64,000 nucleotides of DNA from Halegenticoccus soli (GTDB taxonomy: Archaea > Halobacteriota > Halobacteria > Halobacteriales > Haloferacaceae). Of the stretch, positions 3,271 through 61,055 are shown piece after piece (positions within the stretch are counted from its first letter, which is position 1; every line of letters starts with the position of its first letter). The stretch lies in assembly GCF_002844195.1 (NCBI RefSeq), contig NZ_PEND01000001.1, forward strand, positions 124,001 through 188,000. Direction: 5' to 3'. The notes below the pieces were generated by a model that saw nothing but the letters and a program-made list of their open reading frames with translations, was not told the DNA's origin and made no database searches. Both the position numbers and the translations under genes were made by a program.

Positions 3271-3272
3271 CA

Positions 3273-29905: not shown

Positions 29906-30137
29906 AAAGGAGAGACACCTCCTCGCTCCATAAGCAGTGTTGGTGACGGCGTAATCTGAGTGTTAGTACTGGAGAACATCGAACAGTACGCAGGTGTAGT
30001 GAGCGAGTAGTTCACTAGTTTCGGCGTGAAACAAACGGAGTCGTTGTGCTGAACTTATCCTCTAAGTCCTGCACGCCGATTTCAACAGATTTGTGATCTG
30101 CTACACTGGAAAGTATGAGGATCCACGCAAATCCCTG

Positions 30138-34800: not shown

Positions 34801-35469
34801 CGTCCCGGCCAGCTGCTCTAGGAGATTGACAGCGCCCGGGGCGACGTCGCCGGTCTTTGGATCGCGGATGTCGTCGAAGTCGAGGAGGCCAACGTGCGGT
34901 TCACTGGGCACGTCTTCCCCGGGATCAACCCAGGCGTACTTCTCGTCGTCGTCCCAGTCGTCACGGTCGGGACCGGTGAGGTAGTACGCGAATCCGAGGT
35001 CGTCGTCGTGATCGACCCAATTGCTGGCAGTCTCGAAATCGAACCAGGCGTTGGGGTCCTTCGCGCCGACGAACGCGTAGCCGACGTCTTGGTTGGAGTA
35101 GCCCCAGCTGGGGTTTCGGGGCACCTTTCGGTCGTCGCTGTACTGCCAGAGCAACCAGCGGGCGCCATGTTCGGCGAGATCGGTGGGGAAGGTGTTGGGC
35201 TCGACGCCATGGAGGTCGACCTTCGCATCGTCTTGCCGGCCGTCGGTGGTCCGGTCTGGGCGCGTGAGTTCCTTCGCTTGCGACGTCGAAGACGCCGCGG
35301 ACGACGGGTCCTCAGCGGTTTCCGTCTCGTCGGAGTCCGAGCCTCCGGTGTCCACGCCCAGTCGCTTGACGTGGTGGTCGCAGAGCGAACCAGCGCCGAC
35401 GGTGGTCGTGGCTTCCTGCTCGCACGACGGCATCGAGCACTGCTGGTCCGCGGGGACGGTGCGCCTCAC
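31883..35469 (-). pseudogene. Replication protein of element A (PrimPol/helicase), frameshifted
   Basis: The front 1000 residues (35469 to about 32475) read a Cys/His cluster (CSMPSCEQ, LCDHHVK), a PrimPol-like domain (HVGLLDFDDIRDPKTG, CEWSPSGTGAHALGG), and a helicase part with P-loop IDAPTGLGKSYTVATE and VIFDERP. The C-terminal helix-turn-helix region (FVHTSAVPAG, then RKLAEATDVSKRHVAKTL) lies in another frame down to 31883. One extra CA (TGTG at 32472-32475, plus strand) would account for the break: removing it joins RAH to GRGF. It is a paralogue of the intact gene of element B. Confidence 0.8.
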
Positions 35470-35540
35470 GCGACCACCCCCAAACCGACGGTATCGCCAC
35501 TGTAGGGCTTTTTACAAGCAGGATTTAACCAAAGTACAGT

Positions 35541-35563
35541 AAGCCTAGGCCGGGATTTGAACC
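35541..35563. repeat. Central attachment site (tRNA-Thr 3' copy)
   Basis: Identical over 23 bases to 60983-61005, then diverges (GAGAC against CGGGC). It serves as right border of element A and left border of element B. The integrase ATG is 50 bases downstream and a TATA box (CGTATAATAG, 35581-35590) lies between. Confidence 0.9.
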
Positions 35564-35612
35564 GAGACTTCATAATCCCACGTATAATAGAGTATGATAT
35601 AGTGATTGTGGA

Positions 35613-40791: not shown

Positions 40792-41790
40792 ATGGCACAT
40801 CTGAACGTGTACGAATGCCAGCTCCCGAACGAGGACCTCCGGATCTGGCGACATCCCTCCAAAAACAAGGACATCCCCCAATCCATCGACGAACGGTACG
40901 ACTCCATCACGACCGACACCAAGGCCTCTCCCGCGGTCGCCGTTCCGACCAACGAGGAGGGCCGACGAGTGCTTGAGGAGGAGACCGGATACGAGCCAAA
41001 CACCGTCCCTTGGAAGGACTACCTCTGGATCTACTCGAACCTGGTTCAATACAGCGTCATCCGTCACCTCATCAAGAACCACGAGTTCACCCCGCTACAA
41101 GTCGACCAAGCCGAGGCCAAGATCCACCGGGTGAACCAGGTCTACCGGACGGACCCCGTGGCCGAACCGGTGGACGGTCTCGAGATCCGTCAGGGACTTA
41201 AGGTCCGCTCCCGGTTCTGGAACCTTCCGGATCAAGGGCCGTTCGTCGGCATCAACTTCGCGTACACGACCACGAACATCTTCACCGAACCACTCGACGA
41301 CGTGCTTGACGGCGTCCACAACCAGGACTACTGGCTGAAGATGAACTGCCCAGCCGACTGCCCACACGAAGACTGCACGTTCCACGGACACGCCGGCCTG
41401 ATCGGTGAGTTCGACGGCTTCACCGAAACCGGCGAGTTATGCCAGTATGCTGCGGACGGATCCGGCCAGTACGCGTCGGTTTCGCCGGCCGTCGATGGCA
41501 TCGACAGCAACCCGCCCGTCGAACGTGTCGCGATCGAAGCCAGCTACGCGAACATCCGGCAGTGGGCCACGGACAAGTATGGGAGCCGTCAATCCGGCAT
41601 CATCGAGGACATCGGCCGAAACCGCCTCGGCATCCCCGATCGGTTGAGCGAGAAAAAGGCCTCGGAGCGGGAGGCGAAGTACGAACTCGGCCAGCTGAAC
41701 GACCTGATGGACCAGATCGACCGGAACGTCGAACTGCTGACCGGGCAGACACTTACCATCGCCGACCAGCCCGTGGAGGTGCTCGCCTAA
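40792..41790 (+). CDS. Argonaute-associated protein, APAZ/N-terminal-like (Aga1-like)
   Basis: 332 residues. The middle segment GLKVRSRFWNLPDQGPFVGI, then NFAYTTTNIFTEPLDDVL (about 135-172), resembles the N/L1 to PAZ or APAZ part of Argonautes, which the 436-residue PIWI protein lacks. A cluster C186, C190, C195, H198 and H200 (NCPADCPHEDCTFHGH) could bind zinc. The C-terminus (KKASEREAKYELGQLNDLMD) is helical. It ends 3 bases before the Ago start, so it is most likely its obligate partner. The assignment rests on pattern and context. Confidence 0.7.
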   Translation: MAHLNVYECQLPNEDLRIWRHPSKNKDIPQSIDERYDSITTDTKASPAVAVPTNEEGRRVLEEETGYEPNTVPWKDYLWIYSNLVQYSVIRHLIKNHEFTPLQVDQAEAKIHRVNQVYRTDPVAEPVDGLEIRQGLKVRSRFWNLPDQGPFVGINFAYTTTNIFTEPLDDVLDGVHNQDYWLKMNCPADCPHEDCTFHGHAGLIGEFDGFTETGELCQYAADGSGQYASVSPAVDGIDSNPPVERVAIEASYANIRQWATDKYGSRQSGIIEDIGRNRLGIPDRLSEKKASEREAKYELGQLNDLMDQIDRNVELLTGQTLTIADQPVEVLA

Positions 41791-41793
41791 CCT

Positions 41794-43104
41794 ATGCCCA
41801 TCCAGTTCCACGCCGAGCAGCTTGACTCACCGACCCACCGGTTTGACTACACCAACCCCAGCATCACGAACAGTAACGTCGGCAAGGGGTTAGGCAGGAA
41901 CGGCCCATTCGACTCCTCCACGTCCCGCGATTTCACCGACGCCACGTTCACCCTGGTGTACCCGGCAAGCTGGCGGTCGGACGCCGAAGGGTTCCAAGAT
42001 GCGCTGATAAACGGCCACTCGAGCTACTACCCGAACGGCTTCCGATCGTTCTTCCGGATGGACAGCGTCTCCGTAGCGAACACCATCGAACTGGACGACA
42101 CGGACCTCGATACCTACGTGGACGCCGTCGATGATATCCAGGCAGCCGATGACGACCTGGCGATCGTGTTCGTGTCGGACGAAATGCGCAGCCGGGGCTA
42201 CCGATCTCCGTACTGGGCGGTGAAGGCGCTGCTCACGCAAGCCGGGATTCCCAGTCAGATGGTGCTCGTCGACAAACTCCGACAGCACTCATCGCATCAC
42301 GTCCCGTTGAAGTACCTGATCGTCAACGTCGTCAGCCAGATCTACGCGAAGCTCGGTGGGACGCCGTGGGTCATTCACCGTCCTCGGTCACCGGTCGACT
42401 TGGTGATCGGTGTCGGGAAGAGCGAGTACCGCGCTGGCCGGGTCGGTGGGACGACACGGACGCTTGGGTTCGCCGCTGCTTACCAGAGCAACGGCGCCTT
42501 CCTCTGGTTCGACTCGACGCAAGCGACCACGTCCTACGATTCGTTCAATGACCAGTTGACGAAGAGCATCGTCGAGGCCGCCGAGAAGTATGCGCAGCAG
42601 GAGAACGCGCCGGAGCACATCGTGGTCCACAGCTACAAACGGATCGGACCGGCGGAACGGGATGCCAAGGAACGGCTGGAGGACGAGTTCGATGGTCTCG
42701 ACGTGACCCTGGCGCACCTCAATGACAGCCACGACTTCCGAATCTACGACGACCGGCACAGGACCGGCCTGTCGCAACGCGGGCTGTGGATCCGGACCGG
42801 CGGGAACAAGGGGTTCGTTATGACGGGTGGCCGGCGCAACTTCCGCCCGGGCTCGCCTGTCCCGATCGAGCTGGAGGTCGAGGGTAGCCTGGAGATCAAG
42901 GAGATCGCGCAGGGCATTTACGACCTGTGCTCGGTGTACTGGAAGGATCAGTTCGGGTCGAATATGCCGATCACCATCAAGTACGCGGAGGATATCGCCG
43001 ATATCATTGAGAATGCCCAGAAGGTTGATGATGACGGCGTGGCAAGAATTGACATGGGCCGGATGGTGAGCCCACGCCTCAGGGATATCCCATGGTTCCT
43101 CTAA
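41794..43104 (+). CDS. Short prokaryotic Argonaute (MID-PIWI), catalytically inactive
   Basis: 436 residues. MID: SPYWAVKALLTQAGIPSQMV (Y140, K144, Q155) and YAKLGGTPW with K186 form the pocket for the guide 5' end. PIWI: VDLVIGVGKSEY (about 201-212), HIVVHSYKRIGPAERD (about 275-290), RGLWIRTGG, SPVPIELEVEG, IAQGIYDLCSVYWKD and MPITIKYAEDIADI. The tetrad is lost: G208 stands for the first Asp and Y281 for the third. It therefore should bind guide and target without cutting, as in short Agos that trigger an effector. The downstream gene overlaps it by 13 bases. Confidence 0.92.
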   Translation: MPIQFHAEQLDSPTHRFDYTNPSITNSNVGKGLGRNGPFDSSTSRDFTDATFTLVYPASWRSDAEGFQDALINGHSSYYPNGFRSFFRMDSVSVANTIELDDTDLDTYVDAVDDIQAADDDLAIVFVSDEMRSRGYRSPYWAVKALLTQAGIPSQMVLVDKLRQHSSHHVPLKYLIVNVVSQIYAKLGGTPWVIHRPRSPVDLVIGVGKSEYRAGRVGGTTRTLGFAAAYQSNGAFLWFDSTQATTSYDSFNDQLTKSIVEAAEKYAQQENAPEHIVVHSYKRIGPAERDAKERLEDEFDGLDVTLAHLNDSHDFRIYDDRHRTGLSQRGLWIRTGGNKGFVMTGGRRNFRPGSPVPIELEVEGSLEIKEIAQGIYDLCSVYWKDQFGSNMPITIKYAEDIADIIENAQKVDDDGVARIDMGRMVSPRLRDIPWFL

Positions 43105-44408
43105 CTACGGCCGGCGAGCGGTCACAGGGAGAGCAGTCACAGCCCAACCTGAAGCTCATCATCCATCGGACGATCCACCAGCTTCTCGACCGGGAAGAGG
43201 AACGCCCCGGTTGGTATGGGGACCCGCTCAGCACGGCCTGGGTCGGCCTCGCGCTCCAGGCACACGACGGGCATACGGATGAGATAGCCGACATCGCTGA
43301 CGAGCTCGAGGATTGGTTCGCTGACGTCCAGGTATCGCACGAGTATCAGGTCGCCGCTCTCGGATTGATGGCCGAGTTCTTCCAACAGTTCGACCGCGGC
43401 CGTCCGATCTACGACGAGATCCGGGACCAGTTCTTCGCCCAGATCGATGAGGAGATCGCTCGCCGTGAGGAGAGCGACGGGCCGGATGCCGCGCGGTTCC
43501 AGTTCTTCAACTCCTACATCTACCTGTACTGCGCCCTCGTCGGCATCAAGGCGTACGATGCGTTGGACGAGTACCGTGAGTTCCTATCCAGTGAAGTGGA
43601 GGGCCAGCGCGAGGCGACTTGGACCGAGTACGACCGGATGGCGTTCGTCGAGACCGTTGCCTTGGAGGTCGCCGAGTACGACGCCAAGGAGTGTCGAGAC
43701 GTGCTACAAAAGATGCGGCGCGTGGACGAAGAAGACCTGAATGAGTATGAGTTGATCCCGCTCGTCTGGTTCTTCCAGGAGCAGCAGGACGCGATTCGGG
43801 ACGCCTTGAGCCAGGAGAAGTTCGCACAGGAGGTCGTGGCCGAGATACGTCAGAATCTTTGGCAGCGGTTGTACGACGAGCTGCCATTCGAGCTGTATCT
43901 TGCGGACGAGATCGGTTACGAGTTCACTCCGGACGTCCAGCAGCTCGCGTTACTTGACCAGCTGCTCGGCCGGCTGGACAACAGCATCCGGGTGTTCTCA
44001 GCGGAGCAGCTGGAGGAGCACGAGGCCGAGGTGGCCGAGGAGAAGGACCAGGCGATTCGGGAGAATCGGCGTCGGAAGAACATCATCGAAGTTGGTGCCG
44101 CGATGTTGATCGGGTTCATCCTGGTCGATGTCGTGATTGCCTACCCGCCGTCAGCGTCGTTTATGGACGCGTCGCACTTCGTGCAGGGCATCACAGTATT
44201 CCTGCTGATGCATATGGAATGGCGGCTGGAGGATATAAGCAAGGATTTCGGCCTGACTGAGTCCGTGCCGATGGTCCGTGACGTCGTCAATATGGTCGAG
44301 GATCGGAACTGGCCAGCTTGGATTCTCCGGCTGGCGTTCGGTCTAATCGGTGCTGGCGTGGTCGGATACTTCTGGGTGGATATCCAGGCCTTTTTCCTGG
44401 CGTTCTAA
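43092..44408 (+). CDS. Membrane effector candidate of Argonaute system (Aga2-like)
   Basis: 438 residues. A helical soluble domain of about 325 residues (HEYQVAALGLMAEFFQQFDR, NSYIYLYCALVGIKAY) ends in a charged coil (EEHEAEVAEEKDQAIRENRR) and three hydrophobic segments: about 331-351, 362-377 and 409-436. It starts inside the Ago gene, so production is coupled. In the Sulfolobus short-Ago system, Aga2 is a membrane effector that depolarises cells on target recognition. I propose the same role here. Sequence similarity to Aga2 could not be tested. Confidence 0.75.
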   Translation: MVPLTTAGERSQGEQSQPNLKLIIHRTIHQLLDREEERPGWYGDPLSTAWVGLALQAHDGHTDEIADIADELEDWFADVQVSHEYQVAALGLMAEFFQQFDRGRPIYDEIRDQFFAQIDEEIARREESDGPDAARFQFFNSYIYLYCALVGIKAYDALDEYREFLSSEVEGQREATWTEYDRMAFVETVALEVAEYDAKECRDVLQKMRRVDEEDLNEYELIPLVWFFQEQQDAIRDALSQEKFAQEVVAEIRQNLWQRLYDELPFELYLADEIGYEFTPDVQQLALLDQLLGRLDNSIRVFSAEQLEEHEAEVAEEKDQAIRENRRRKNIIEVGAAMLIGFILVDVVIAYPPSASFMDASHFVQGITVFLLMHMEWRLEDISKDFGLTESVPMVRDVVNMVEDRNWPAWILRLAFGLIGAGVVGYFWVDIQAFFLAF

Positions 44409-45526: not shown

Positions 45527-48493
45527 TCAGCTCTCGGCGGTTTGACTCTTCTCGTACACTTCACGACGTAGATGCTTCGTAATCGCCTCTTGGATCTCAT
45601 CGTTGTCCATAAACTTAGCAAACAGTTCCCGATTTTGGTCCATTCGATCAATGAACATATCGGTGAGAGCGTTGTCGAATTCGAGCGCGAAGTTTTCCTC
45701 GTTGTTTACCTGCGCCGACCTTCGCAGGTGATCGTCTTCGAGAGCGTCTTCTTTGAGCTGATCCAAGAATAGCTGGTCAGCTTCTGTGAAATCAGTTCCC
45801 AGCGCCTCGTTGACCTTCTCAACGATGGTGGAAAGTTCGACTTCTTCGTCCTCTTGACTACCTGTGCCAGTCTCGGTCGGAACAGAGACTCCGCTATTGG
45901 ACTTATCGAGCTCGATGGCACCCTCGTCGGATTTCTCGAGTCGGTAGTACTGGAGAGCCAGTTCGTCGTTGAATTCCACGCGAGATTCCCGCGAATCCCG
46001 CGGGAGTTCCTTGTAGAGGAACCGACCGAACGTGTACAGCTTCTCTAACGTCGTATCGGAATAACTGACTACCTGCGACTGGAATTTGTACAGCCGAAGG
46101 AACGAACGAAGTTTAGAACGGAACTCGTCCTGCGTCTCTTCATCCGCAACCATAAAGCGGTCGCGGGCTGGCTGGATGTGGCTGTTCAGCTTCGCGTGGG
46201 CCTGCTCTGTGGCGCGATTCTCGGGGCTGAAGAACGCCTCCGCGAACTGGTCGACTTCCTGTTGCGTGTAGATCTGGAACGAGTTGAGTTCTGACTCCAG
46301 CTGATAGATGTGCTGAGGGTCGGTCGTCTCTTCGACGGTCGTCTTCTCATAGTAGGGTTGGAACGACTCGTAAATGTCCTCGCGATCGTTTTCGAAGTCG
46401 AGGACGAACGTATCCTCCTTGCCTGGGTGTGTCCGGTTCAGCCGCGATAACGTTTGCACGGCCTGGACACCCGAGAGCCGCTTGTCGACGTACATCGTGT
46501 GGAGAAGCGGCTGATCGAACCCGGTTTGGTACTTATCAGCCACGACGAGGACCTGATACTCGGAGGTTCCGAACTTATTCGGCAACTCGGACTCTTTGAT
46601 ACCGTCGTTCATTCCCCGTTCCGTGTACTCGATGCCGTCGTCCTCGACGGTCCCACTGAACGCGACGAGCGCACTGAGATTGTACCCATTCTTTTCGACG
46701 TACTCGTCAATCGCGTTCTTGTAGCGGACCGCGTGTACCCTCGACGACGTCACGACCATCGCCTTCGCCTTCCCACCGATCTTGTGCTGGGTGTGATTAC
46801 GGAAGTGCTCGACGATGATTTTCACCTTCTGCGAGATATTGTGCGGGTGGAGCTTCAGGAACTTCGAGACGGCTTTGACGGCCTTCTTCTGAGGGACCTG
46901 TGGGTCCTCCTCGATGACCTTCGCGATGTTGTAGAAGGTCTCGTAGGTCGTGTAGTTCTGAAGTACGTCGAGAATGAACCCCTCCTCGATGGCTTGCCGC
47001 ATCGAGTAGACATGGAACGGTTCGGGCTTATCGCTGTTCTCGGGCACGTGACCGAACGCTTCCAGCGTCTTCCCCTTCGGGGTCGCCGTGAACGCGAAGA
47101 AGCTGAGGTTCTCCTGGTCCCCCCGGGCTTCGGCGCTCTTCGCGAGTAGGTCCTCCCAGTCGTCATCCTCCTCGATCTCCTGGCCGGAGAGGATCCCCTT
47201 CATCTCCTTCGCCATCTCACCCGTCTGGCTGCTGTGGGCTTCGTCGACAACGACCGCGTAGTCCCGTTCGGGTATTCCTTGCGTGTGCTCGATTACGTAC
47301 GGGAACGTCTGCAAGGTGGTAATGACGACCGGCTTGCCCGCTTCCAGGGCCTCAGCCAGTTCTGCGGACTTAGAGCCTTTCTCCCCCTTGACGCCGTAAA
47401 CCACGCCGGTCTTGTGGTCAAGCTCGTAGATGGTGTTCCGTAGCTGCTCGTCGAGAACCGTCCGGTCCGTCACGACCACGACACCATCGTAGACCGCCTC
47501 GTCGGCTTCGTCGTGCAGGGAGACGAGCCGGTGGACCAGCCACGCGATGGACTTGCTCTTTCCGCTTCCGGTGGAGTGCTGGATCAGGTAGTCCTTCCCG
47601 GCACCGTTCTCGCGGGAACTCGCGATGAGCTTCCGGACGCACTCGAGCTGGTGGTAGCGGGGGAAGATCATCGTCTCTTCCTCGCCGACCTTCATGCCGT
47701 CTTTCCGGATCTCTTCGGTGTCGATGTGGATGAACCGCTGGAGGATATCCATCCAGCTGTCCTTCTCCCAGACCTCCTCCCACAGGTACGCGGTCCGGTG
47801 GCTATCCTCTCGTGGAGGATTCCCTGCCCCGCCGTCGTGGCCCTTGTTGAACGGGAGGAAGTACGTGTCGTCACCCTTCAGTTCGGTCGTGTACTCGACC
47901 TCGTCCTGATCGACGGCGAAGTGTACCAGCGCACCTCGGTTGAACTTCAATGCGGGTTCGCCGGGATCGCGGTCGGACTTGTACTGAGCCTTCGCGTCGA
48001 CGATGCTCTGGTCGGTGAACTTGTTCTTCAGTTCCGCCGTGGCTACCGGAATCCCGTTGACGCTCAACGCGAGGTCGATGCTCTTCTTCGGGTCAGTCGT
48101 CGAATAGTAGAACTGGCGAGTGACTCCCAAACGGTTCGCCTCGTAGCGTTTCTGGACTTCCGGGTTCAGCCCGGTGTTCGGTTTGAATGCCGCGAGTTCG
48201 ATGGTCGTCCCCGTCGTACGAAGCCCGTGCCGGAGTAACTGTAGAGTTCCTCGGCTTTCCATCGCGCTGGCGAGGTCCTGCAGGAATCGCTTCCGTGCAT
48301 TCCCCTTGTAGGCAGTCTCCAGCCGCTCCCATCGCTCTGGTTGAGTTTTCTTGACGAACGACACGACGACGTCTGGGAAGATACCTCGTTCCCGATCGAA
48401 TTCCTCGGACGGCAAGTGCTCGTAGCCGCCGTAGTTGACGAGGTGAGCCGCAATCTCGTCCTCAAACTTCCCTTCGTCGTGTATCTTACTCAT
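45527..48493 (-). CDS. hsdR: Type I restriction enzyme, R subunit
   Basis: 988 residues. The N-terminal nuclease has GIFPDVVVSF and the ATAELKNKFT (E-x-K) core near residue 180. The SF2 motor follows: Walker A STGSGKSKSIAW, Walker B VVDEAHSSQTG, motif III FTATPKGKTLEAFG, motif VI QTLSRLNRTHPGKEDTF. HsdR translocates DNA and cuts it when it meets another complex. Its ATG overlaps the stop of the methylase gene by four bases. All key motifs are intact. Confidence 0.96.
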   Translation of the reverse strand: MSKIHDEGKFEDEIAAHLVNYGGYEHLPSEEFDRERGIFPDVVVSFVKKTQPERWERLETAYKGNARKRFLQDLASAMESRGTLQLLRHGLRTTGTTIELAAFKPNTGLNPEVQKRYEANRLGVTRQFYYSTTDPKKSIDLALSVNGIPVATAELKNKFTDQSIVDAKAQYKSDRDPGEPALKFNRGALVHFAVDQDEVEYTTELKGDDTYFLPFNKGHDGGAGNPPREDSHRTAYLWEEVWEKDSWMDILQRFIHIDTEEIRKDGMKVGEEETMIFPRYHQLECVRKLIASSRENGAGKDYLIQHSTGSGKSKSIAWLVHRLVSLHDEADEAVYDGVVVVTDRTVLDEQLRNTIYELDHKTGVVYGVKGEKGSKSAELAEALEAGKPVVITTLQTFPYVIEHTQGIPERDYAVVVDEAHSSQTGEMAKEMKGILSGQEIEEDDDWEDLLAKSAEARGDQENLSFFAFTATPKGKTLEAFGHVPENSDKPEPFHVYSMRQAIEEGFILDVLQNYTTYETFYNIAKVIEEDPQVPQKKAVKAVSKFLKLHPHNISQKVKIIVEHFRNHTQHKIGGKAKAMVVTSSRVHAVRYKNAIDEYVEKNGYNLSALVAFSGTVEDDGIEYTERGMNDGIKESELPNKFGTSEYQVLVVADKYQTGFDQPLLHTMYVDKRLSGVQAVQTLSRLNRTHPGKEDTFVLDFENDREDIYESFQPYYEKTTVEETTDPQHIYQLESELNSFQIYTQQEVDQFAEAFFSPENRATEQAHAKLNSHIQPARDRFMVADEETQDEFRSKLRSFLRLYKFQSQVVSYSDTTLEKLYTFGRFLYKELPRDSRESRVEFNDELALQYYRLEKSDEGAIELDKSNSGVSVPTETGTGSQEDEEVELSTIVEKVNEALGTDFTEADQLFLDQLKEDALEDDHLRRSAQVNNEENFALEFDNALTDMFIDRMDQNRELFAKFMDNDEIQEAITKHLRREVYEKSQTAES

Positions 48494-51216
48494 ATGGTTG
48501 TCTCTAACTCATCGTCTTGGTCTTCTGTGACATTAGTTTGACCCGTCACTGCGGCATTGATGAGTGCCTTCCGCCTCTGCTCCAGAAGATTCATTGTCTC
48601 CTCGGTTTTTTCGATGAGGTCCCAGAGTTGATCGGTTTGCGACTGGATGTATTCGACGATTTCTCGTTGCTCTTCAATGGGAGGTAACGGTGTTTTGAAT
48701 GACCGAATATCCGGCATATAGATCGTCTGGTGGGTGGATCCCTGCGTAAGACGATCAAACTCAGAGTCCATCGAACGGAAGACATAGAGGAGATATTCTG
48801 GGATAATCTCATCTCCACATACCCAATTAGCGAAGTCTTGTGAGGTCGCCATGTCTTGGCCCATAATCCCAGAGAAGCCAACAGATGCAGTCCGGGAGAG
48901 GAATACCGTTCCTTCTGGAAGGAGGCGTGCGCCTGAGTTCTCCAAACCCAGCTGGCTAATCTTGTGCTTTGTGTCGTTGAGGTAGATCTTCTTCCCTTTA
49001 CGGAAGGGCTTGATGTCGGAAGTCGTTACCCACGGGATATTCGTGTTCTCCCAGTACTCGTCGTTTGACCTATCGGGGGTGTGGCCGGACTCCAGCCGAG
49101 CAACAAACCGAGTTCTAACGACATCCCAGTGCTCGGGAACCTCGCCAATCCAACCAACGCCTGAATCTTTCATCGGTACGTCCTCCTCTACTCCCTTTGT
49201 GACGGCATCCTGTATCTGACTCTCTCCTGAAATCAGACCTTCAATGCCGCTTACAACATCCGCACCAACCGAATTCAATTGAGTATTGATCCTGGGGAGC
49301 CCTCCTGAGTCCGTATATTCGAAAAAGAACCGATCAAAATTGATTTCATAACCAACTATTCCCAGGTCGCCATCTTTGTCGTCGTGATATTTGCTCTCCT
49401 CGTTAATCCAAGCATTTTCCAGATACGGTGCTACTTCCTCCTCAAAGTAGTCGTGTGGGTCTATACCAAGGGGAACTCGTTCTTTCTCCCGTAAGTCGCT
49501 ATCGTACTCCGGATTACCGTTCCCATCACGGCAGATCTCCGCTTCAGGGTCCCGCTCTCCCATAACCCGTTCGATGGCGTTGTAGACGCTCTTCCGGACG
49601 TCGAGGCCAGCCATATTCAACTTGAGCTCAACGTCATTCAAGAACGATTCCCGGTCCATCCAGACCTTCTCCTCCTCAATCTCGGACAGCGCCTCTTTGA
49701 TGCGCTCCTGAACGTCCTCGTCCCGGTTCGTAAACGCCCGCTCGTCATCGAGTGCTTCGATACGTTCCTCGGTGACTTTGAACCGGAGCCGAAGTGGCTG
49801 ATCGATGACGATGCGCCGATAGCCGAATTCCTCGCCGTCGACGACCCTCGACCGACCATTGGCTTCGAGGTCGCCGAAGATCCGAGTGATTTCGTTGATG
49901 TGCTCCTCGCTGAGCTTGTGGCGTTTCTCCCCGAGACTCTCGTCCATCTCCTCGTACAGGTCCCGTGTGTCGATGAGCTGGACTTTGCCCTCGCGGTGTT
50001 CCGGTTTGTCGTTCGAGAGGACCCAGATGTACGTCCGGATGCCCGTGTTGTAGAAGAGGTTCTCGGGGAGCCCGACGATGCCTTCCAGCCAGTCGTTCTC
50101 GATGATCCACCGCCGGATGGCTGACTCGCCGCTATTTGGACCACCGTTAAAGAGCGGTGAGCCGTTGAACACGATCGCGATGCGAGAGCCCCCATCTTCT
50201 GGCGGCTTCATCTTGCTAATCATATGCTGGAGGAAGAGGAACGCCCCGTCATTCACCCGGGGAGTCCCCGCACCAAACCGCCCGGCAAATCCCTGCTCTT
50301 CGTGTTCCCGTTCGATGTGGTCCTTGACCTTCTTCCAGGAGACACCGAACGGCGGATTCGAGAGCATGTAGTCGAACTTCCGGTCGGGGAACCCGTCTTG
50401 TGTAAAGGAATTACCGTAGATGATGTTCTCGGGCTCTTGGCCCTTGATGAGCATGTCCGAATTACAGACGGCATAACTCTCCGGGTTCAACTCCTGTCCG
50501 AAAACGTGGAGATTCGCCTCTTCGTTGAAGCCTCGGACGTGGTCCTCCGCGACGCTGAGCATTCCGCCGGTTCCACAGGCGGGGTCGTACACCGTCCGAA
50601 CGGCCCCTTCCTCGGTCAGCACCTCGTCGTCCTCGTCGAAGATAAGGTTCACCATCAACTCGATGACCTCGCGGGGCGTGAAGTGCTCCCCAGCGGTCTC
50701 GTTACTGAGCTCGCTGAACTTCCGGATGAGTTCCTCGTAGATGTACCCCATCTCCTGGTTCGGCACGACGTCGGGATGGAGGTCGATCTCCGCGAACTCA
50801 TGGACGATCTGGTAGAGAAGATCCGCCTCGTCGAGGCGCTGAATCTGGTGCCCGAAGTCGAACTTATCGAAGATCTCCCTCGTCTCCTCGTCGTAAGAGT
50901 TGATGTAGTACTGGAGGTTACTCGCGATGTCGTCCGGGTCGTTGCACAGCGTCTCGAAGGTGTACTCGCTCGTGTTGTAGACCTTTTCGCCGGCCGCTTT
51001 CTTCAGTGCCGGGGCGACGTTCTCGATACCCTGGCTCTGTAGTTTCTCGTACCGGTCCAACACATCCGCTTTGTTCCGCTCCGTAACGCAGTCGAGACGG
51101 CGGAGGACCGTCATCGGCAGGATGACTTTCTGATATTCCGACTGCTTGTAATCCCCTCGGAGAAGGTCGGCTATAGACCAGATGAAATCGGCCTTCTCGT
51201 TGAAATTCTCGACCAT
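48490..51216 (-). CDS. Type I modification subunit fused to half specificity subunit (HsdM-HsdS)
   Basis: 908 residues. The N-terminal HsdM part (1 to about 500) has DPACGTGGMLSVAEDHVRGF and the adenine-methylase motif MLSNPPFGVSW. A linker region (about 500-670) leads to a specificity module (about 690-895): VPEHWDVVRTRFVARLESGH, PWVTTSDIKPFRKGK, and PLPPIEEQREIVEYIQSQTD with a coiled coil. Only one target-recognition domain is present where type I S subunits normally have two. A homodimer would read a palindromic site. A TATA-like box lies near 51240-51250. Confidence 0.93.
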   Translation of the reverse strand: MVENFNEKADFIWSIADLLRGDYKQSEYQKVILPMTVLRRLDCVTERNKADVLDRYEKLQSQGIENVAPALKKAAGEKVYNTSEYTFETLCNDPDDIASNLQYYINSYDEETREIFDKFDFGHQIQRLDEADLLYQIVHEFAEIDLHPDVVPNQEMGYIYEELIRKFSELSNETAGEHFTPREVIELMVNLIFDEDDEVLTEEGAVRTVYDPACGTGGMLSVAEDHVRGFNEEANLHVFGQELNPESYAVCNSDMLIKGQEPENIIYGNSFTQDGFPDRKFDYMLSNPPFGVSWKKVKDHIEREHEEQGFAGRFGAGTPRVNDGAFLFLQHMISKMKPPEDGGSRIAIVFNGSPLFNGGPNSGESAIRRWIIENDWLEGIVGLPENLFYNTGIRTYIWVLSNDKPEHREGKVQLIDTRDLYEEMDESLGEKRHKLSEEHINEITRIFGDLEANGRSRVVDGEEFGYRRIVIDQPLRLRFKVTEERIEALDDERAFTNRDEDVQERIKEALSEIEEEKVWMDRESFLNDVELKLNMAGLDVRKSVYNAIERVMGERDPEAEICRDGNGNPEYDSDLREKERVPLGIDPHDYFEEEVAPYLENAWINEESKYHDDKDGDLGIVGYEINFDRFFFEYTDSGGLPRINTQLNSVGADVVSGIEGLISGESQIQDAVTKGVEEDVPMKDSGVGWIGEVPEHWDVVRTRFVARLESGHTPDRSNDEYWENTNIPWVTTSDIKPFRKGKKIYLNDTKHKISQLGLENSGARLLPEGTVFLSRTASVGFSGIMGQDMATSQDFANWVCGDEIIPEYLLYVFRSMDSEFDRLTQGSTHQTIYMPDIRSFKTPLPPIEEQREIVEYIQSQTDQLWDLIEKTEETMNLLEQRRKALINAAVTGQTNVTEDQDDELETTI

Positions 51217-51372
51217 CTACAGTAGGGGTTACAGTTTAGAATAATAAGTGGTGCGACCCAGGGGTTCTGATTCTACCCCCGTGATTACCCGGAATATCGT
51301 GTCTGGTCCAGCAGAGGTATGCTCCTTTATACCGTAGAATAAATTACCAGTGAAATAACACTGTAGCAGAGG

Positions 51373-53073
51373 ATGCTATTCCGGTTCCCCACAGAAAACG
51401 AAATCGCCTATCATTATCCCACGGCATCAACGGTGGAGGAGTATCTGGAGCGGGCACAGGCGGATCCGGATGACCACTATCACTTCGCGTCGAGTCTCCG
51501 ATCAATTTATCAGTGGATCGTACTCGCGGACCAGTTCGACGAGGATCCCCACGAGAAAATAGACGATCTCCTTGACAACCTATCGGTGACGCATCCTTCT
51601 ATTTCTGCAGCGGTGGCACTCACTGAGTGGGAAACCGAGAGAAACTATTACGAGGCTATTTCAGCACTCCACTTGCTCTATGATACGTTGGAAGAAGCTG
51701 ATGCAATGGAGTGGCACCACGTCGCCAAGCACGTTCTTACGTGGTTGCTGAAGACAGAGAAAGAACTGAATAGAGATTCATCTACCATTCTGAACGACAT
51801 CGTCCGGTACTGCGACGATCATTTCTACGGTGCATCCGATCTACCATTAAACACCTATCACGAGCTTGTTTCCCTCATCTACGAGAATCATTACGATGCC
51901 GATGAACAGGCTCTTCTCCGTATATTCGTCATCACCCTTCAACAAGCCAACCGATATGCATCTAATGGAGAGTCACAGCAAGAACGGATGCTCCTCGAGG
52001 ATGCTCTGGAATTAGCCAAAGTGGTTGGGATTGACCAACGCGGTGTCGCAAGACGATACGTCGAAACCTATCACAGTGAGGCAGCACTGCAATCGGATCC
52101 AGTCGTCAGAGGCGGCACATTGTTGCGGGGATTAGAAGATAGTACGGTTAGTAGCACCTTGTCTGATGCTGAGAAGCAAGAGTGGAAACGCGAGATGAAT
52201 GAGGCATTCCGGTCGGGCGCAAAACAACTTCGGCGGAAAGGTACACCGCTTCACACCAATGATATGGACGATGCGTTCCGTAGTGATGTCCAGAGAAACA
52301 CCCAGCTATTCAAGCTGTTAGCTGCACGTCATTCTCGGAAAGGAGCCATCTACTGGTTTGCGACCCAGAACAAGTTTCTCCCGGCAGAAGATACGGATCG
52401 TCAGCCTCTTCTTGACCGGATATCGACGGTCGCACCATCGGATACGGGGCACGTTGTTCGTCAAACCCCCGATGGAGATGAAATCGAGGTCACCCAGTCC
52501 TATCTCACGAATTTATCGGTTTATGCACCGTTGGCACCCCAGACCCTCTTTGAACTCGTGAATGAGGGCGTCGTCACACGTGGGTTGCTCTATCAAATTT
52601 TCTTTAACTGTGAATCCATCTCAGCCGATGACCGATGGTACGCAATCAGTTTCATCACCGCGTTATGGGAGAAGCGGTATGGTGAGGCCATCCACCTCGG
52701 CATTCCCCGGCTTGAGTCAATGATGTTCAACGTTCTGCAGTCGAAGGGTGAGGACGTCGACGCCCTTTTTGATTCGGGAACGGGCACCCGCACACTCGGA
52801 TCATTACTCGATGTCTTGGAAAACTACGTTGACCAGCGTTTCCACAAGTACCTGAAGTATATGTACAACGATCGGCTCGGAGAGCTTGCAGGTGGAAACC
52901 TTCGGAACCGAACTGCGCATGGTCACCTCCGAATGGGTGAGGACAACGCCTTCATCGCCTATCTTATCCTCACGGATTTACTCCGACTGATCATCCGCAC
53001 CGACCTTATAGCGCACCGTGCGGAGTTTGGCTTACTCTCCGAATACGAGTTACTCGATCAGTTCTTGGATTGA
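51373..53073 (+). CDS. DUF4209/HEPN-like protein linked to restriction genes
   Basis: 566 residues, almost all helical. The C-terminal domain has GGNLRNRTAHGHLRMG, an R-x4-H HEPN motif (R-N-R-T-A-H) with the LRN..HG context of DUF4209. HEPN proteins of this type are RNases in defence. It is divergent from hsdMS over a 156-base gap with TATA-like CCTTTATACC at 51328-51337. It may add an RNA-cutting response to the restriction system, an inference from position. Confidence 0.7.
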   Translation: MLFRFPTENEIAYHYPTASTVEEYLERAQADPDDHYHFASSLRSIYQWIVLADQFDEDPHEKIDDLLDNLSVTHPSISAAVALTEWETERNYYEAISALHLLYDTLEEADAMEWHHVAKHVLTWLLKTEKELNRDSSTILNDIVRYCDDHFYGASDLPLNTYHELVSLIYENHYDADEQALLRIFVITLQQANRYASNGESQQERMLLEDALELAKVVGIDQRGVARRYVETYHSEAALQSDPVVRGGTLLRGLEDSTVSSTLSDAEKQEWKREMNEAFRSGAKQLRRKGTPLHTNDMDDAFRSDVQRNTQLFKLLAARHSRKGAIYWFATQNKFLPAEDTDRQPLLDRISTVAPSDTGHVVRQTPDGDEIEVTQSYLTNLSVYAPLAPQTLFELVNEGVVTRGLLYQIFFNCESISADDRWYAISFITALWEKRYGEAIHLGIPRLESMMFNVLQSKGEDVDALFDSGTGTRTLGSLLDVLENYVDQRFHKYLKYMYNDRLGELAGGNLRNRTAHGHLRMGEDNAFIAYLILTDLLRLIIRTDLIAHRAEFGLLSEYELLDQFLD

Positions 53074-53106: not shown

Positions 53107-53157
53107 GAAACCCTCAACTGGTGATAGGTTTCAGCAGCCGTGCTGAATACACAGCGC
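53107..53157. repeat. Degenerate repeat X, copy 2
   Basis: Matches 27764-27814 of element A at about 80%. It lies 33 bases after the HEPN gene stop. It is likely an insertion-sequence end remnant. Confidence 0.55.
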
Positions 53158-53229
53158 ATATCTCACAACCAGATTCAGGCTGAATTGCCTGCGAAGAGGC
53201 TATGCGAATATTGTACCTACTGTTCTCGC

Positions 53230-53520
53230 TCATCAACTTTCAGACGGAAAGATACCAGCCGAATAGCAATGATGACACCAGAAGCGTCAGCGGGACAGCA
53301 ACCCACACTTGACCCGCAAACACGTCATAATATCCGAAGGTGACGGAGACAGGGGCCCCTCAGTGTAGCCGACCAAGAATTCGAAACCCAACGGTATCGA
53401 CTGGCGATTGGGGGCCTTGTTCGCGCTCCTGATCGGCGGCCTCGCCTAAGGCGTGATCTCGTTTTTGGCTACCGAAGCTCCTAATCCTGCCGGTGCCGGC
53501 CTCTATGGATATATTAAACT
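53230..53520. pseudogene. Decayed membrane-protein fragments
   Basis: On the minus strand 53230-53345 read a membrane-like tail (FGYYDVFAGQVWVAVPLTLL, then SSLLFGWYLSV and stop) with a stop just upstream and no start. On the plus strand 53420-53520 read LGALFALLIGGLA, stop, GVISFLATEAPNPAGAG. Both look like remnants in DNA without an intact gene. Confidence 0.4.
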
Positions 53521-53564
53521 CAAGATCCCAAGATGATCGCTGGGGGGACGTAGAACCGGTCTCA

Positions 53565-54890
53565 TTATTCAGTAGACTGCTCCCTGGAGTCCTCTTCTGC
53601 TTCTTCTGCAAGCGTGTTTTTCCACATTTCCGGCTCCTCGGTTGGGTCCGTGAAGCGCCGGACCCACACCCGCTGAATGTCGTGGTGCCCGTACTCGTTC
53701 ATCTCGAATACCGGGTCTTCCGACCGATGCCAGTACGCTTCGAGGAACGCACCGGCATTGTCCGAACTGATCTCAACCAGATCGACAACTGGCCAGACGT
53801 CCCAATCGCGTTTCGTCAGAAACCGTCCCATTGCGTGTTCAAGATGCTCAACCGAGCCATCGTAGTTCGCGAGGCCAGCCAGCTCCGCCGTGTACTCGTA
53901 CTTGTCCTGGAGCGTCGTCCCCGAGTCCGTCGACTCGATCACCTCTAAATCCGCATCGGACCCATTGCCGACCACCACCTCAAACTCGTTAAGCCACGAT
54001 TCGACCTTGTCCCGCTCTTCCTCTGTGGCATTCGGAGCCAGTATGAGGCGGTTGGTCATCCATTCGGTCGCCGCCGGTAGTTTCCGAAATGGATCCTCCT
54101 CGAGGTCAGGCCGGAACGCGACCGGGGTTCCGTCTGCTGCGGACTCAATGAACCCGTTGTTTGTAAACGGATTGACCAGGATGCGGAACTCGATTTCGTC
54201 GTCGAAGTCTTCGCCTTTGAAGAAGGTAATAGCCGCGTTCCAGCCCGCTGGTTGGTCCTGTGTAGGGTTTTCGTCCTGCTGGTATTTGCAGGCTCCAAAC
54301 CGGATGTCGCACGTCTCCGTGGTGAACGAGAGATTCCATTCAGGGGTCTCCGTGATGTTGTCCGGATCGAACTCGTCATCTTCGTCTTGGATCGCCGGCC
54401 GGGACGGCAGGGCGGCAATCAGCTGGCCGACAGTGGTCTCGACCGCACACCCGGCTTTCATCTCGTCGTCTTGAGTGTAGCATTTCCAGATGGCGTCTTT
54501 CTCTTCGGTGCCGAGTCGCCAGCAGTTGGCAAAGTGCTGGCGGCGGGAGTCGCGATGGTACTGGTCGAGCGCCTCCTGGAATTCTTCGTCGGATGCTATG
54601 TCAATGTCTTCGTCCATGCGCTGTCGTTTTCGCATAGAGTCTGCTGCAAGAGCGCCTTTGAGGGAATTGTATCCGCCGGGATGCTGGAGGATTCCTTCAT
54701 TCTTATCGTCAAAGTTCGTGAGGTGGTTGCAGAACAAACCCTCGGTGAAGTACGTCTCAAGCTGGCGTTTTTCTCTCAGTGAGCGGTAGCGGCGGACAAT
54801 CATCTGTTCGGAGGGGATAGGTGTGTACTCGGAAGCGGGTTTGCGAGAGGGGTTGAGAAAGATCATACGCGAACCTCTGTAGGTTGCCAT
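53565..54890 (-). CDS. DUF2971-like protein
   Basis: 441 residues. VRRYRSLREKRQLETYFTEG, then LFCNHLTNFDDKNEG and FANCWRLGTEEKDAIWKCYT, match the DUF2971 layout (YRY..., F.DP.EG, CWS...MW..Y), followed by GCAVETTVGQL. DUF2971 proteins are frequent in defence islands and have no assigned reaction. The C-terminus is acidic and has a second segment around KRDWDVWPVVDLVEISSDNA. The start could also be the Met at residue 9. Confidence 0.7.
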   Translation of the reverse strand: MATYRGSRMIFLNPSRKPASEYTPIPSEQMIVRRYRSLREKRQLETYFTEGLFCNHLTNFDDKNEGILQHPGGYNSLKGALAADSMRKRQRMDEDIDIASDEEFQEALDQYHRDSRRQHFANCWRLGTEEKDAIWKCYTQDDEMKAGCAVETTVGQLIAALPSRPAIQDEDDEFDPDNITETPEWNLSFTTETCDIRFGACKYQQDENPTQDQPAGWNAAITFFKGEDFDDEIEFRILVNPFTNNGFIESAADGTPVAFRPDLEEDPFRKLPAATEWMTNRLILAPNATEEERDKVESWLNEFEVVVGNGSDADLEVIESTDSGTTLQDKYEYTAELAGLANYDGSVEHLEHAMGRFLTKRDWDVWPVVDLVEISSDNAGAFLEAYWHRSEDPVFEMNEYGHHDIQRVWVRRFTDPTEEPEMWKNTLAEEAEEDSREQSTE

Positions 54891-57734: not shown

Positions 57735-60700
57735 TTACCCTGGGGGTTGACCACCCTGGACCAGTCGAGTACCTCCTCCGTTGACGGCGCCACCTTCGCT
57801 TATAGAATCATCAACAGCGTATCCGACCAGTGATTGTCCGTTTTTGCGGAACTCCCACGTATAGTAACTACTACGCATCACTTCCGCAACCTCGACCTCG
57901 GTCAGATCATCGATATCGACGGGCTCGAGTTCGACCTCGCCGTGTTCGTTCACCCGGTGGAGGCCGGTGTCGAGCCAGGTGAATCCACGGTCCTCGTGGC
58001 GGACTTCGAGATACCCACGCTCTTGGAGGGTGTGAAGGTGGTCCCGGACCTGGCGCTCGCTGATCGAGACCTGGTCGGCGATCTCCCCAGTGCGCCACTC
58101 GTCAAGCTCGGCGGCCGCGTCGATCACCTCACGCATCCCGTCGGACCAGGTGGTGAGGACGCGCCCCTCGCCGGCGACGGGGACCCAGTCGGGGAGGGTG
58201 TCAGTGTGGACGTACACCGTTGCCCCATTCCCGTCGCGACCGAACCGCATCACAGCCTGGAGTGTCTCGTGTTCCCTCATATGTTGGAGGACTTGATCCC
58301 CGAAGGATCCGTAGGAGAGGCCCGTACCCTTTTCCTCACCACGTTCGACGGCCTTGCCGGCATACGCCCCCCAACGCTTGATGTATCCGTCGCCGTAGTG
58401 ATTCGAGCCGATCACCGCACCGAGACGAGTCTCTCCGAACTTGTTAGAGCCGAGTACGTTTCCGTAGTACCCGGTTGCGCTGGCGGGGCCGTCGAGGACC
58501 TCCCCATCGTTGCCCAGCTCGAGAAGCCCGTTGGCCTCGTACTGATCGAGGGCCGTCGACGTCGTGATGACCGCGGGCGATTCCCTATGTTGATCGGTAA
58601 TCGCATCGAGGAGCGCGGCGTCTTGGTTCACGGAGACGTGATCGGCCGAGTTGTACGGCTTCACAGCATCGGTGGTCCGGATCAGGTTCAGGTTCAGGAC
58701 ATCCCGAAGATACTCTCGGCGTTCGACGTCGGTGAGCACCTGTCGGTGGTTCAACCGAGTGCCAAGTGAGAGCTCCCAGAGCGCCGGCGTTGGCGTCCCG
58801 TCGAGCGCGAGGACCGAACGGGTGTACTGGAGGGCGGGAGGAGTGAGAAGCCACACCACGCCGTTTTCACGGTCGTACAAGCCGATGCTATGCTCACAGA
58901 GCTCGGCGCGCTCCCATCCGTTTCCGAGTTCTTCCCCGGAACCAGCGAGGATAGTGAATACTGCAAGGGGGGCGCGAGCGTCAGCCTGCCGGTCACCAAA
59001 CACGAGTTCCCCGTCGGTCTCGAGGTCCTGGTCGGCGAACCAGGCAAGGGCCTCTGCCCGGCGCTCCTCGTCGCGCCGATTCTCGATTAGGTCGGTGTAG
59101 TCGTCGAACGGGACCGCGTCTGTGACCTGCAGGTAGTAGGTGATTGCACCGGCCAGGCGCTGGCCCGCGAGGGGGGTCTCGTAGGTGCCGGCGGGAAACT
59201 CATCGAACACCACCGCACGGCCCTGAGTCACTTTCCGCTTGTATCCGTGAGCGTAGTGTCCGATCAGGACGTCGTACTCGTCGGGGTCGAACCGCCACTT
59301 CGAGGTGTACGGGCACTCCTGCCCCTCGTGGCGCTGACAGGGGAGTGGTTCGCCGAGCTCGTACTCGGCATTCTTGTGAATCTCCTGCGGGGTCGCCCCC
59401 CGCTGGTACCAGTCCCGGACGGTCTCGGCCCAATCCTCGCCGTGTTCGCCGTTCGCGGTGTCGCAGTCGCGGGCGAACGAGGGGAGGGTGTAATGAGAGA
59501 GACCGACGGCGTCGCACCACTCACGCATCTGTCCATATTGCTCTTTGTGGCCCCGGGTGGTGAGGATAGTCGTCGGTTCACCGGTTTCAGCGACCGCCTG
59601 GACGGTCCCGTGGGACTTCCCGGTGGTCGGAAGTGCCTCGATCAGCACTTGGTCGCCAGCCTTGAGGGCGTCGGCGATGGCCGTCTGTGTACGGTCGCGG
59701 GCCGCGGTGATCGAGAGGTCAGTGTCGTGGGTGTGTGCGCCCGCGGCGTGTTGCCAGTCCCACCCGCTCGCAGCGGCCTTAGCGCGGTCAGAGTCAGGAA
59801 GGACAGCCACCGGTTCGGGGGCCTCCTCGCCGGGTTCAAACTCAGGGATGTGCGCACCCCGGGCGCGGAGGGCGTCGACGGCCTCCCAGAAAGCCTCGCC
59901 GCTCGGGTAGTCGTTCACGTCGCTGATGATTCGCTCCTCGAGGGCGACCACCTGCAGGGCGTCGAGACCGCGCATCCCCTTCCGGTACACCCATCCGTCG
60001 CCGACCTGCGCGAGGCGGGTGCCGCTCTTCGACGAGGCCCAGGAGGGGTCCAGCGACTTCGAGCCATCGGCGCGCTTATGGGTAACCGTCGACCGGAGCC
60101 GAATGTCTCGCGGACCAATGTGTTGGATAGCGTCGAACACGTCCTTCAGGTCGGTGGTGATCTCGACGTCGGCGATCTCCTCGCGGGACCTCTCAGGCTC
60201 GCGAGTGAGTTCGTCTGGGGTACCTTCGGCGACGGTCGCGTACTCTTCGGCGAGGTCCTCGATGAACGCTTGGCAGTCAGTAGTCTCACGGGGGGTGTCG
60301 GTAAGGTGGTCTCCGGTCATCGCGGAGTACCGCCCGGAGTCGTATACCTCGATCTCGGCGTCGGGGAATCCGTCGACCTTGGGGAGTGCGGCGTTGATGG
60401 CCTTCACGCCGTCAGGTAGCCGGCCACGGGCGAAGATGTGGATGCCGGTCCCAGAGGTGCTTACGTCCGCATACGAACTGGCGCGTTCGAGGTGTTCACG
60501 AACCACCGGATGAACTGCACCGGTCTCTGGATCACGGGCGTCGTCGTAGTCGATCAGGACGAACGGGTCCTCCGGGTATTCCTTACGGTCGGGGATGTTG
60601 AACGCGACGCCGTGGTCCGGGAGGTGATCGGCCCATCGCTCGGCAGTCTCGAAATCGGTCCAGAGTTCGGGATCCTGCGCGCTGACGAACAGATCCGGTC

Positions 60701-60863
60701 GTCCGGGGTTCGCGTACGGGGCACGAGGAACCTTCCGTCCGTCGTCGGTCGGTTTCCAGGTAAGCCACCGCTTGACCTCCTTGAGGTCAGCGGGGTACAC
60801 ACCTGGCTCGATCTCAACTCCAATCTTGACGGAGTTGGAGTCCTCCGAACCGGGCGCCGTCAT
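57735..60863 (-). CDS. Replication protein of element B (PrimPol plus helicase plus wHTH)
   Basis: 1042 residues. The N-terminal part (about 1-230) has the PrimPol pattern: FVLIDYDDARDPETGAVHP and STSGTGIHIFARGRLPDG. A spacer with VYRKGMRGLDALQVVALEER follows. The motor (about 390-760) has a modified P-loop (ALPTTGKSHG), VVFDEFPAGTYE and LTPPALQYTRSVLALDGTP, closer to SF2 than to D5-type SF3. The end is a helix-turn-helix (GEIADQVSISERQVRDHLHT). It likely primes and unwinds DNA when the element replicates. A TATA-like box near 60885-60899 suits a leaderless start. Confidence 0.85.
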   Translation of the reverse strand: MTAPGSEDSNSVKIGVEIEPGVYPADLKEVKRWLTWKPTDDGRKVPRAPYANPGRPDLFVSAQDPELWTDFETAERWADHLPDHGVAFNIPDRKEYPEDPFVLIDYDDARDPETGAVHPVVREHLERASSYADVSTSGTGIHIFARGRLPDGVKAINAALPKVDGFPDAEIEVYDSGRYSAMTGDHLTDTPRETTDCQAFIEDLAEEYATVAEGTPDELTREPERSREEIADVEITTDLKDVFDAIQHIGPRDIRLRSTVTHKRADGSKSLDPSWASSKSGTRLAQVGDGWVYRKGMRGLDALQVVALEERIISDVNDYPSGEAFWEAVDALRARGAHIPEFEPGEEAPEPVAVLPDSDRAKAAASGWDWQHAAGAHTHDTDLSITAARDRTQTAIADALKAGDQVLIEALPTTGKSHGTVQAVAETGEPTTILTTRGHKEQYGQMREWCDAVGLSHYTLPSFARDCDTANGEHGEDWAETVRDWYQRGATPQEIHKNAEYELGEPLPCQRHEGQECPYTSKWRFDPDEYDVLIGHYAHGYKRKVTQGRAVVFDEFPAGTYETPLAGQRLAGAITYYLQVTDAVPFDDYTDLIENRRDEERRAEALAWFADQDLETDGELVFGDRQADARAPLAVFTILAGSGEELGNGWERAELCEHSIGLYDRENGVVWLLTPPALQYTRSVLALDGTPTPALWELSLGTRLNHRQVLTDVERREYLRDVLNLNLIRTTDAVKPYNSADHVSVNQDAALLDAITDQHRESPAVITTSTALDQYEANGLLELGNDGEVLDGPASATGYYGNVLGSNKFGETRLGAVIGSNHYGDGYIKRWGAYAGKAVERGEEKGTGLSYGSFGDQVLQHMREHETLQAVMRFGRDGNGATVYVHTDTLPDWVPVAGEGRVLTTWSDGMREVIDAAAELDEWRTGEIADQVSISERQVRDHLHTLQERGYLEVRHEDRGFTWLDTGLHRVNEHGEVELEPVDIDDLTEVEVAEVMRSSYYTWEFRKNGQSLVGYAVDDSISEGGAVNGGGTRLVQGGQPPG

Positions 60864-60982: not shown

Positions 60983-61005
60983 AAGCCTAGGCCGGGATTT
61001 GAACC
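60983..61005. repeat. Inner attachment site in tRNA-Thr
   Basis: These 23 bases form the 3' end of tRNA-Thr(GGT) plus one or two bases and are identical to 35541-35563. The element supplied this end and thereby kept the tRNA whole. Confidence 0.88.
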
Positions 61006-61055
61006 CGGGCTCTCGTCCTTACCAAGGACGCGCTTTACCGCTAAGCTACCCAGGC
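60984..61055 (-). tRNA. tRNA-Thr (anticodon GGT)
   Basis: Read on the minus strand: acceptor GCCTGGG pairs with CCTAGGC (one G-U), D arm GCTTAGCGGTAAAGC, anticodon arm CGTCC-TTGGTAA-GGACG with GGT, T arm CCGGG-TTCAAAT-CCCGG, discriminator T73 and no encoded CCA. No intron is visible. It is the target of both integrated elements. Confidence 0.97.

Follow-up and report, generated by a model that had tools for sequence, protein, structure and literature searches.

A DUF4209-family protein with a predicted HEPN domain beside a type I restriction-modification system on an integrative element of Halegenticoccus soli

Described systems and the locus

According to the passages of the 2013 HEPN survey used here (PMC3710099), DUF4209 is the C6orf70 HEPN family, which is predicted to be catalytically active, is fused to TPR, is listed in restriction-modification (R-M) related operons and has its range given as bacteria and eukaryotes (Table 1 of the survey); human C6orf70 is described there with a membrane segment. 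Among the matches listed for ERMARD and RNase no title dealt with ERMARD enzymology. Also relevant is PDC-S39, a single-gene phage-defence candidate (PDC); in the cited parts of an archaeal survey of 2026, single-gene PDCs are found by 'guilt-by-embedding', mostly without experimental validation (PMC12988326). The other described arrangements with which the locus can be compared are PrrC, a HEPN nuclease that adjoins a type Ic system, candidates embedded among Hma genes, and the HEPN-MNT toxin-antitoxin systems.

The window, i.e. the whole stretch of 64,000 nucleotides analyzed, carries a DUF4209 gene next to a type I system within an integrative element. The features discussed below are as follows.

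35542-61006: integrative element with the DUF4209 gene, hsdMS and hsdR, marked by direct repeats of the tRNA-Thr 3' end
35613-36854, plus strand: tyrosine integrase of the element (PF00589, E 9.9e-19)
45527-48493, minus strand: HsdR, 988 aa, after hsdMS (profile matches)
48490-51216, minus strand: 908-aa fusion of HsdM with a half-size HsdS that has a single target-recognition domain (profile matches)
51217-51372: gap of 156 bp between the divergent hsdMS and DUF4209 genes
51240-51247, minus strand: TTATTATT, putative promoter element just upstream of hsdMS (read from the sequence)
51326-51331, plus strand: TTTATA, putative TATA-like element for the DUF4209 gene (read from the sequence)
51373-53073, plus strand: DUF4209/PDC-S39 family protein, 566 aa (ORF with PF13910 and PDC-S39 matches)
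51433-52230, plus strand: predicted N-terminal alpha/alpha superhelix, TPR-like, residues ~21-286 (full-length model)
52498-53040, plus strand: predicted C-terminal HEPN domain, residues 376-556 (domain model)
52903-52920, plus strand: predicted catalytic motif R511-N-R-T-A-H516 (Rx4H) (sequence and alignment)

The first-pass annotation had drawn the DUF4209 feature from 51217 to 53073. The ORF on the plus strand is real, its length of 566 residues was given exactly, and the helical character ascribed to it agrees with the structure model; the left boundary, on the other hand, took in the 156-bp gap, and the true start is the ATG at 51373 (+), which is supported by the alignment of the N-terminus with that of the closest relative (genome G032). 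The designation hsdMS was apt: HsdM_N, N6_Mtase and a single Methylase_S domain lie in one 908-aa ORF, followed by HsdR. The gap said to be shared by hsdMS and the DUF4209 gene does separate two divergent genes, and TTTATA and TTATTATT may be their promoters. HsdM-HsdS fusions were also found in G067 and G381 (908 aa each, 89 and 86% identity) and in G354 (898 aa, 62%).

Like the C6orf70/DUF4209 family as described, the window protein keeps Rx4-6H with the polar N after R, has surroundings of the R-M type and, in the model, may have a helical-repeat N-terminus; it differs in being of a haloarchaeal branch, whereas the range given in the cited 2013 table covers bacteria and eukaryotes (PMC3710099). 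It is a further member of an already described family. With the Hma-embedded candidates the likeness goes through a relative in G032 and G033 (34-35% identity), which stands between HmaC-like DUF499 and HmaB-like DUF1156 genes, whereas the neighbour in the window is a type I R-M system; of the PADLOC matches listed for the scanned genes of the window, which for HsdMS were the best 25 of 143, none was to an Hma gene.

We consider the DUF4209 protein to be a free-standing, presumably RNA-cutting HEPN defence effector, a cargo of the integrative element and an interchangeable neighbour of DNA-modifying defences, and we put the probability of this reading at roughly 0.62. The gene stands beside the type I R-M genes on a mobile defence island, most likely without being wedded to them. 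Should the protein indeed be an RNase, a family listed in 2013 as bacterial and eukaryotic would extend to haloarchaea, and attack on DNA and on RNA would be carried together on one mobile island.

Family membership, conserved motif and fold models

Profile matches place the window protein in the DUF4209/C6orf70 HEPN family (PADLOC candidate PDC-S39). Scanned alone against PF13910 (DUF4209), it scored 21.5 bits (E 2.5e-4), i.e. 0.8 below the cut-off of 22.3; in the genome search it reached 24.5 bits, above the cut-off, and 17 of the 19 aligned members match PF13910 at E 0.01 or better, which bears out the earlier label 'DUF4209-like'. The PDC-S39 models PDLC05012 and PDLC05011 match it at E 1.7e-10 and 2e-5, by its C-terminal part alone (residues 391-519 against 448-575 of the 615 model positions). 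One of these models matches 18/19 aligned members (best 4e-149) and the other 15/19 (best 1.9e-211). Some DUF4209 proteins have a long C-terminal extension (loci L045, L047, L048), and among the 19 aligned members HHH_5 (helix-hairpin-helix) matches were seen in two and DUF5817_CT matches in three.

A homologue is present in 16 of the 147 genomes searched, and a PF13910 match in 20 of the 392 genomes of the order (17 over the cut-off), the genome of the window being counted in both cases. The plasmid collection yielded five records with relatives, all haloarchaeal and with 22-26% identity, and two haloarchaeal plasmid records already bear the product name 'DUF4209 domain-containing protein'. 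In the single-protein scan of genome contigs two stretches matched a pattern, with no relative by tblastn; among viral contigs ten stretches matched a pattern, again with no relative.

As to the motif, the DUF4209 ORF has 10 Rx4-6H strings against a mean of 4.2 in its shuffles; such strings come cheaply, and their bare count is uninformative as evidence. The alignment of the window protein with relatives 16-35% identical to it tells them apart. R511 and H516 of RNRTAH (residues 511-516) are kept in 18 of the 19 aligned sequences, the window protein included, and G037 is gapped at both positions because its frame breaks before that point; none of the remaining strings has both residues kept in more than 8/19. 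The motif stands above chance since this pair alone among the ten is conserved. The R-x4-H motif to which the first-pass annotation had drawn attention, naming lack of conservation as a finding that would speak against it, is therefore a conserved one. The residue following the R511 position is N in 17 and H in one of the 18 sequences with the motif. According to the cited passages of the survey, the position after R is polar (N, D or H) in HEPN families retaining Rx4-6H (PMC3710099), and this combination, the one used for DUF4209/C6orf70, is found in the window protein. E448 is invariant in 19/19 aligned sequences; its context in the window protein is ESMMF, and at this residue (followed by SMMF) the Ex3[KR] form is absent. 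That form is reported in many, not all, HEPN families (PMC3710099, 2013, passages cited here) and is not a required HEPN feature.

The missing Ex3[KR] form could be taken to mean that the domain is catalytically dead and binds RNA or a partner uncut, for instance in the control of the mobile element, all the more as some HEPN families are regarded as non-catalytic; however, Rx4-6H has disappeared from those families, in whole or in part (both statements from the cited passages of PMC3710099), whereas here R511/H516 is the sole well-kept pair, and we regard a purely binding role as unlikely. RNA cleavage by the window protein may reasonably be predicted from its sequence and modelled fold.

The full-length model (built with nine sequences) is moderate, with a pLDDT of 74 and a pTM of 0.51; the pLDDT blocks reach 76-93 for residues 81-280 and are lower before residue 81. 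In VIA-align its N-terminal superhelix is similar to proteins with TPR, other helical repeats or designed repeats (listed rows with Z 8.3-12.2, mostly covering 23-286), where a Z below 13 can be merely a common arrangement for helical repeats and helical bundles. The profile search of PDB sequences gave three matches, all to TPR2A of Hop (E ~0.075). Comparison of the full-length model with the PDB brought up helical repeats and not the HEPN part, and therefore the domain (residues 376-556) was modelled separately, with a pLDDT of 72.6 and a pTM of 0.72. VIA-align compared the domain model with 187 chains that Foldseek had preselected; its 17 best rows are HEPN-type with Z 6.4-8.5, all below the tool's mark of 13, and the next one is a designed protein with 5.4. 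Two of these chains, 1wty and 7bxo, were placed among the HEPN-type ones on our own assumption. The HEPN-type chains matched include Csm6, HEPN-MNT toxins, AF0298 and RnlA; 15 of the 17 best are named HEPN by their titles or in the cited passages of the 2013 survey (PMC3710099). In Foldseek itself the first four rows of the domain model are HEPN-type as well, at E >2, which is not significant. These model matches together with the conserved Arg/His pair make a HEPN domain likely, and the HEPN assignment proposed earlier now has family match, motif and fold model in agreement.

Type I loci and the neighbourhoods of DUF4209 genes

The first-pass annotation had suggested that the protein acts as a second line of RNA cleavage when restriction fails. 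The idea is not new, since section 10 of the 2013 survey already proposes, for HEPN proteins linked to R-M in general, that they back up restriction (PMC3710099, in the passages cited). Its strictest form would be a guard like PrrC, i.e. a HEPN protein bound and silenced by HsdMS-HsdR and freed when a virus disables restriction. The two genes are indeed adjacent and divergent across a short gap, PrrC provides the precedent of a HEPN nuclease adjoining a type I system, and the family is, in the cited passages, listed in R-M related operons and covered by the general back-up proposal (PMC3710099). On the other hand, PrrC has an N-terminal ABC-type ATPase, whereas the Pfam scan of the window protein found no ATPase family, ABC or other, over the cut-off, and the window genes are divergent rather than joined in one operon.

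Conservation of the linkage was examined from both sides. The HsdM lineage of the window, at E 1e-100 or better, occurs in 22 of the 392 genomes of the order, its own included, and the type I loci were fetched from 17 of the other 21 (all except G306, G111, G164 and G182). Only one of the 17, that of G244, has a DUF4209 gene within the fetched stretch, ~9 kb away; in G120 and G372 such a gene lies on another contig than the type I locus. In the 18 kb fetched around the closest HsdMS fusions, those of G067 and G381, no DUF4209 gene was matched by tblastn with the window protein, a search that could miss a divergent DUF4209 near other type I loci, and neither genome is among the matches listed in either genome search for DUF4209 homologues. 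The 5 kb upstream of hsdM hold 72 ORFs in the 17 loci, 16 of them common to several loci, with a shared ORF in 9/17, so that this region is mostly variable.

From the side of the DUF4209 genes, flanks of up to 20 kb were fetched around 20 relatives, and 21 genomes were searched for HsdM_N and HSDR_N. HsdM_N was found in 8 of the 21, and, the window excepted, near a DUF4209 gene only in G244 (~9 kb) and G049 (~14 kb); HsdM thus lies within 10 kb in 1/20 relatives. The check suggested earlier, a search for type I systems adjacent to homologues, was in this way mostly negative in both directions, and neither the DUF4209 flanks nor the type I loci support a conserved coupling to type I. Since both neighbourhood tests came out against it, coupling to this particular type I system is disfavoured, and a back-up role specific to type I is not supported. 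That two genes adjoin in a single genome is poor evidence that they are functionally coupled, the more so as an 86-89% identical restriction system lacks the DUF4209 neighbour; the lack of a conserved type I partner may still be compatible with coupling in this one genome. Taken together, we hold a PrrC-like guard to be unlikely.

Several other observations were made upstream of hsdM. In G381 we read a divergent gene there as ATPase-like, judging its N-terminus by eye. Related ORFs of 76-81 aa end ~70 bp before hsdM in G067, G381 and G120 (L090, L091, L093), and G388 (L096) has a relative of them farther from hsdM; an ORF of this size cannot fit in the gap of the window, which is just 156 bp. 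G388, G244 and G113 have related 574-aa ORFs upstream of this type I system (L096, L102, L103); G244 and G113 have a three-gene set in common, including 507-aa and 275-299-aa partners, and G388 has one gene of it.

The neighbours of the DUF4209 relatives are various. In G049 and G330 a lone HsdR_N-like protein, the rest of HsdR missing, lies within ~3 kb of the DUF4209 gene:

L044 (G049), 3121-4278: lone HsdR_N-like protein, 385 aa (PF04313, E 3.7e-9)
L055 (G330), 13340-14521: lone HsdR_N-like protein, 393 aa

Near the DUF4209 gene, G330 also has the helicase and the DUF1156 methylase of the G032/G033 cassette described below, and G391 has the helicase (BLAST clusters). For the comparison of differing contexts we took relatives with at least 30% identity (G032, G033, G084, G083, Haloferax denitrificans, Natronomonas gomsonensis and Haloarcula mannanilytica). 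G032 and G033 share the same cassette, delineated by profile scan in the former and by BLAST cluster in the latter: a DUF499 (HmaC-like) gene is on one side of the DUF4209 gene, and a FokI-like nuclease, a DUF1156 (HmaB-like) methylase and an SNF2 helicase, which matches HmaA and scores higher to DrmD and BrxHI, are on the other; G032 has in addition a Schlafen-like AlbA_2 gene nearby. An 853-aa N6-methylase lies near the DUF4209 gene in G084 and Hfx. denitrificans, and a type IIG enzyme, an HKD/SNF2 helicase and an Hhe-like giant protein lie near it in Nmn. gomsonensis. In G083 the DUF4209 copy is broken and stands next to a QatC-like gene; in Har. mannanilytica a BLAST comparison with the other loci and a profile scan of one ORF showed no R-M gene within 8 kb. 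As for the non-haloarchaeal loci L066-L079, an HsdR-like match was found in 1/14, a weak test because their flanks were short and the DUF4209 query itself was recovered in 1/14. One neighbour in L040, of 218 aa, has a weak Pfam match to coronavirus E (E 7e-4, 20.2 bits, cut-off 32), which was dismissed as chance.

Methylase searches covered 25 genomes. N6-type methylase domains (PF02384 and PF07669; for 24 of the 25 genomes the calculation took a rounded size) lie within 10 kb of the DUF4209 gene in 3/24 relatives against 0.31 expected (P 0.003), or in 4/25 with the genome of the window; without the latter, the counts are 2/24 at 5 kb (0.17 expected), 4/24 at 15 kb (0.45) and 4/24 at 20 kb (0.59). 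PF01555 was excluded from this test because lone PF01555 methylases are widespread; no such methylase comes closer than 10 kb to a DUF4209 gene, and G076 has one ~17 kb away. The DUF1156 methylases of G032, G033 and G330 also stand outside it. Being based on three genomes and having no control gene, the enrichment may only reflect that both kinds of genes live in defence islands. The link of DUF4209 to DNA-modifying defence is real but modest, and it is not to type I in particular.

Haloarchaeal DUF4209 proteins might also be guards that plug in beside whatever machine adjoins them (type I, type IIG or Hma-like), sense its state through the helical-repeat part and fire the RNase when it is beaten, without a dedicated binding interface; the cue could be, for instance, the DNA products of the neighbour or its inhibition by a virus. 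We think this unlikely. In the free-standing effector that we prefer, the N-terminal helical-repeat part would probably sense the trigger or keep the protein inactive, and the HEPN domain at the C-terminus, whose catalytic pair would be Arg511 and His516, would probably cut its target RNA in the infected cell and so probably stop growth or virus production. We infer that the protein works beside the type I system and independently of HsdMSR.

The element in tRNA-Thr and its cargo

The 23-bp 3' end of tRNA-Thr(GGT) at 60984-61006 recurs with one mismatch at 35542-35564, directly before the tyrosine integrase gene. GC is 0.53-0.56 in the bins around the DUF4209 gene against 0.66-0.73 in the host flanks; the gene itself has a GC3 of 0.57, and its product has 16.3% acidic residues.

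The presence of the gene on such an element could indicate an addiction toxin with an unrecognised antitoxin, defence being a by-product. HEPN domains are common toxins (PMC3710099, in the passages cited), and small ORFs follow the gene, e.g. one of 67 aa at 53140-53343 (+). However, these ORFs are frames of a size expected by chance, and the one of 151 aa at 53493-53948 (+) is antisense to a likely gene at 53565-54890; no MNT nucleotidyltransferase was found by Pfam in the eight window genes scanned at 43.1-55.5 kb (ORFs of at least 100 aa), and the neighbours differ among the relatives. An addiction toxin therefore seems improbable to us. The gene at 53565-54890, which encodes 441 aa and is convergent with the DUF4209 gene, has a weak PADLOC match to PDC-S31 (E 8.3e-7).

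The same element encodes a Piwi-domain protein of 436 aa (41794-43104, PF02171 E 1.6e-17); the next gene specifies 438 aa with hydrophobic stretches towards the C-terminus, and the region 40792-44408 resembles a short Argonaute system whose partner would be a membrane protein. Farther to the left, a 13-bp repeat at 26270 comes with a further integrase (26332-27630), which suggests, the leftmost repeat being just 13 bp, a second element at 26270-35541 in tandem with that at 35542-61006 in tRNA-Thr(GGT). Each of the two has its tyrosine integrase gene just inside the left repeat (26332-27630 and 35613-36854), and at their right ends are large genes (32245-35469 and 57735-60863) to which no Pfam family gave a name and which, on our own reading, look primase-like.

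In G078 (L043) a different DUF4209 gene (26% identity, 9232-10809) lies ~3.4 kb from a tRNA-Thr(GGT) gene at 14213-14284, and a flanking gene resembles, by eye, the one beside the tRNA-Thr gene of the window; tRNA-Thr(GGT) is possibly an insertion hot spot shared by the two genomes.
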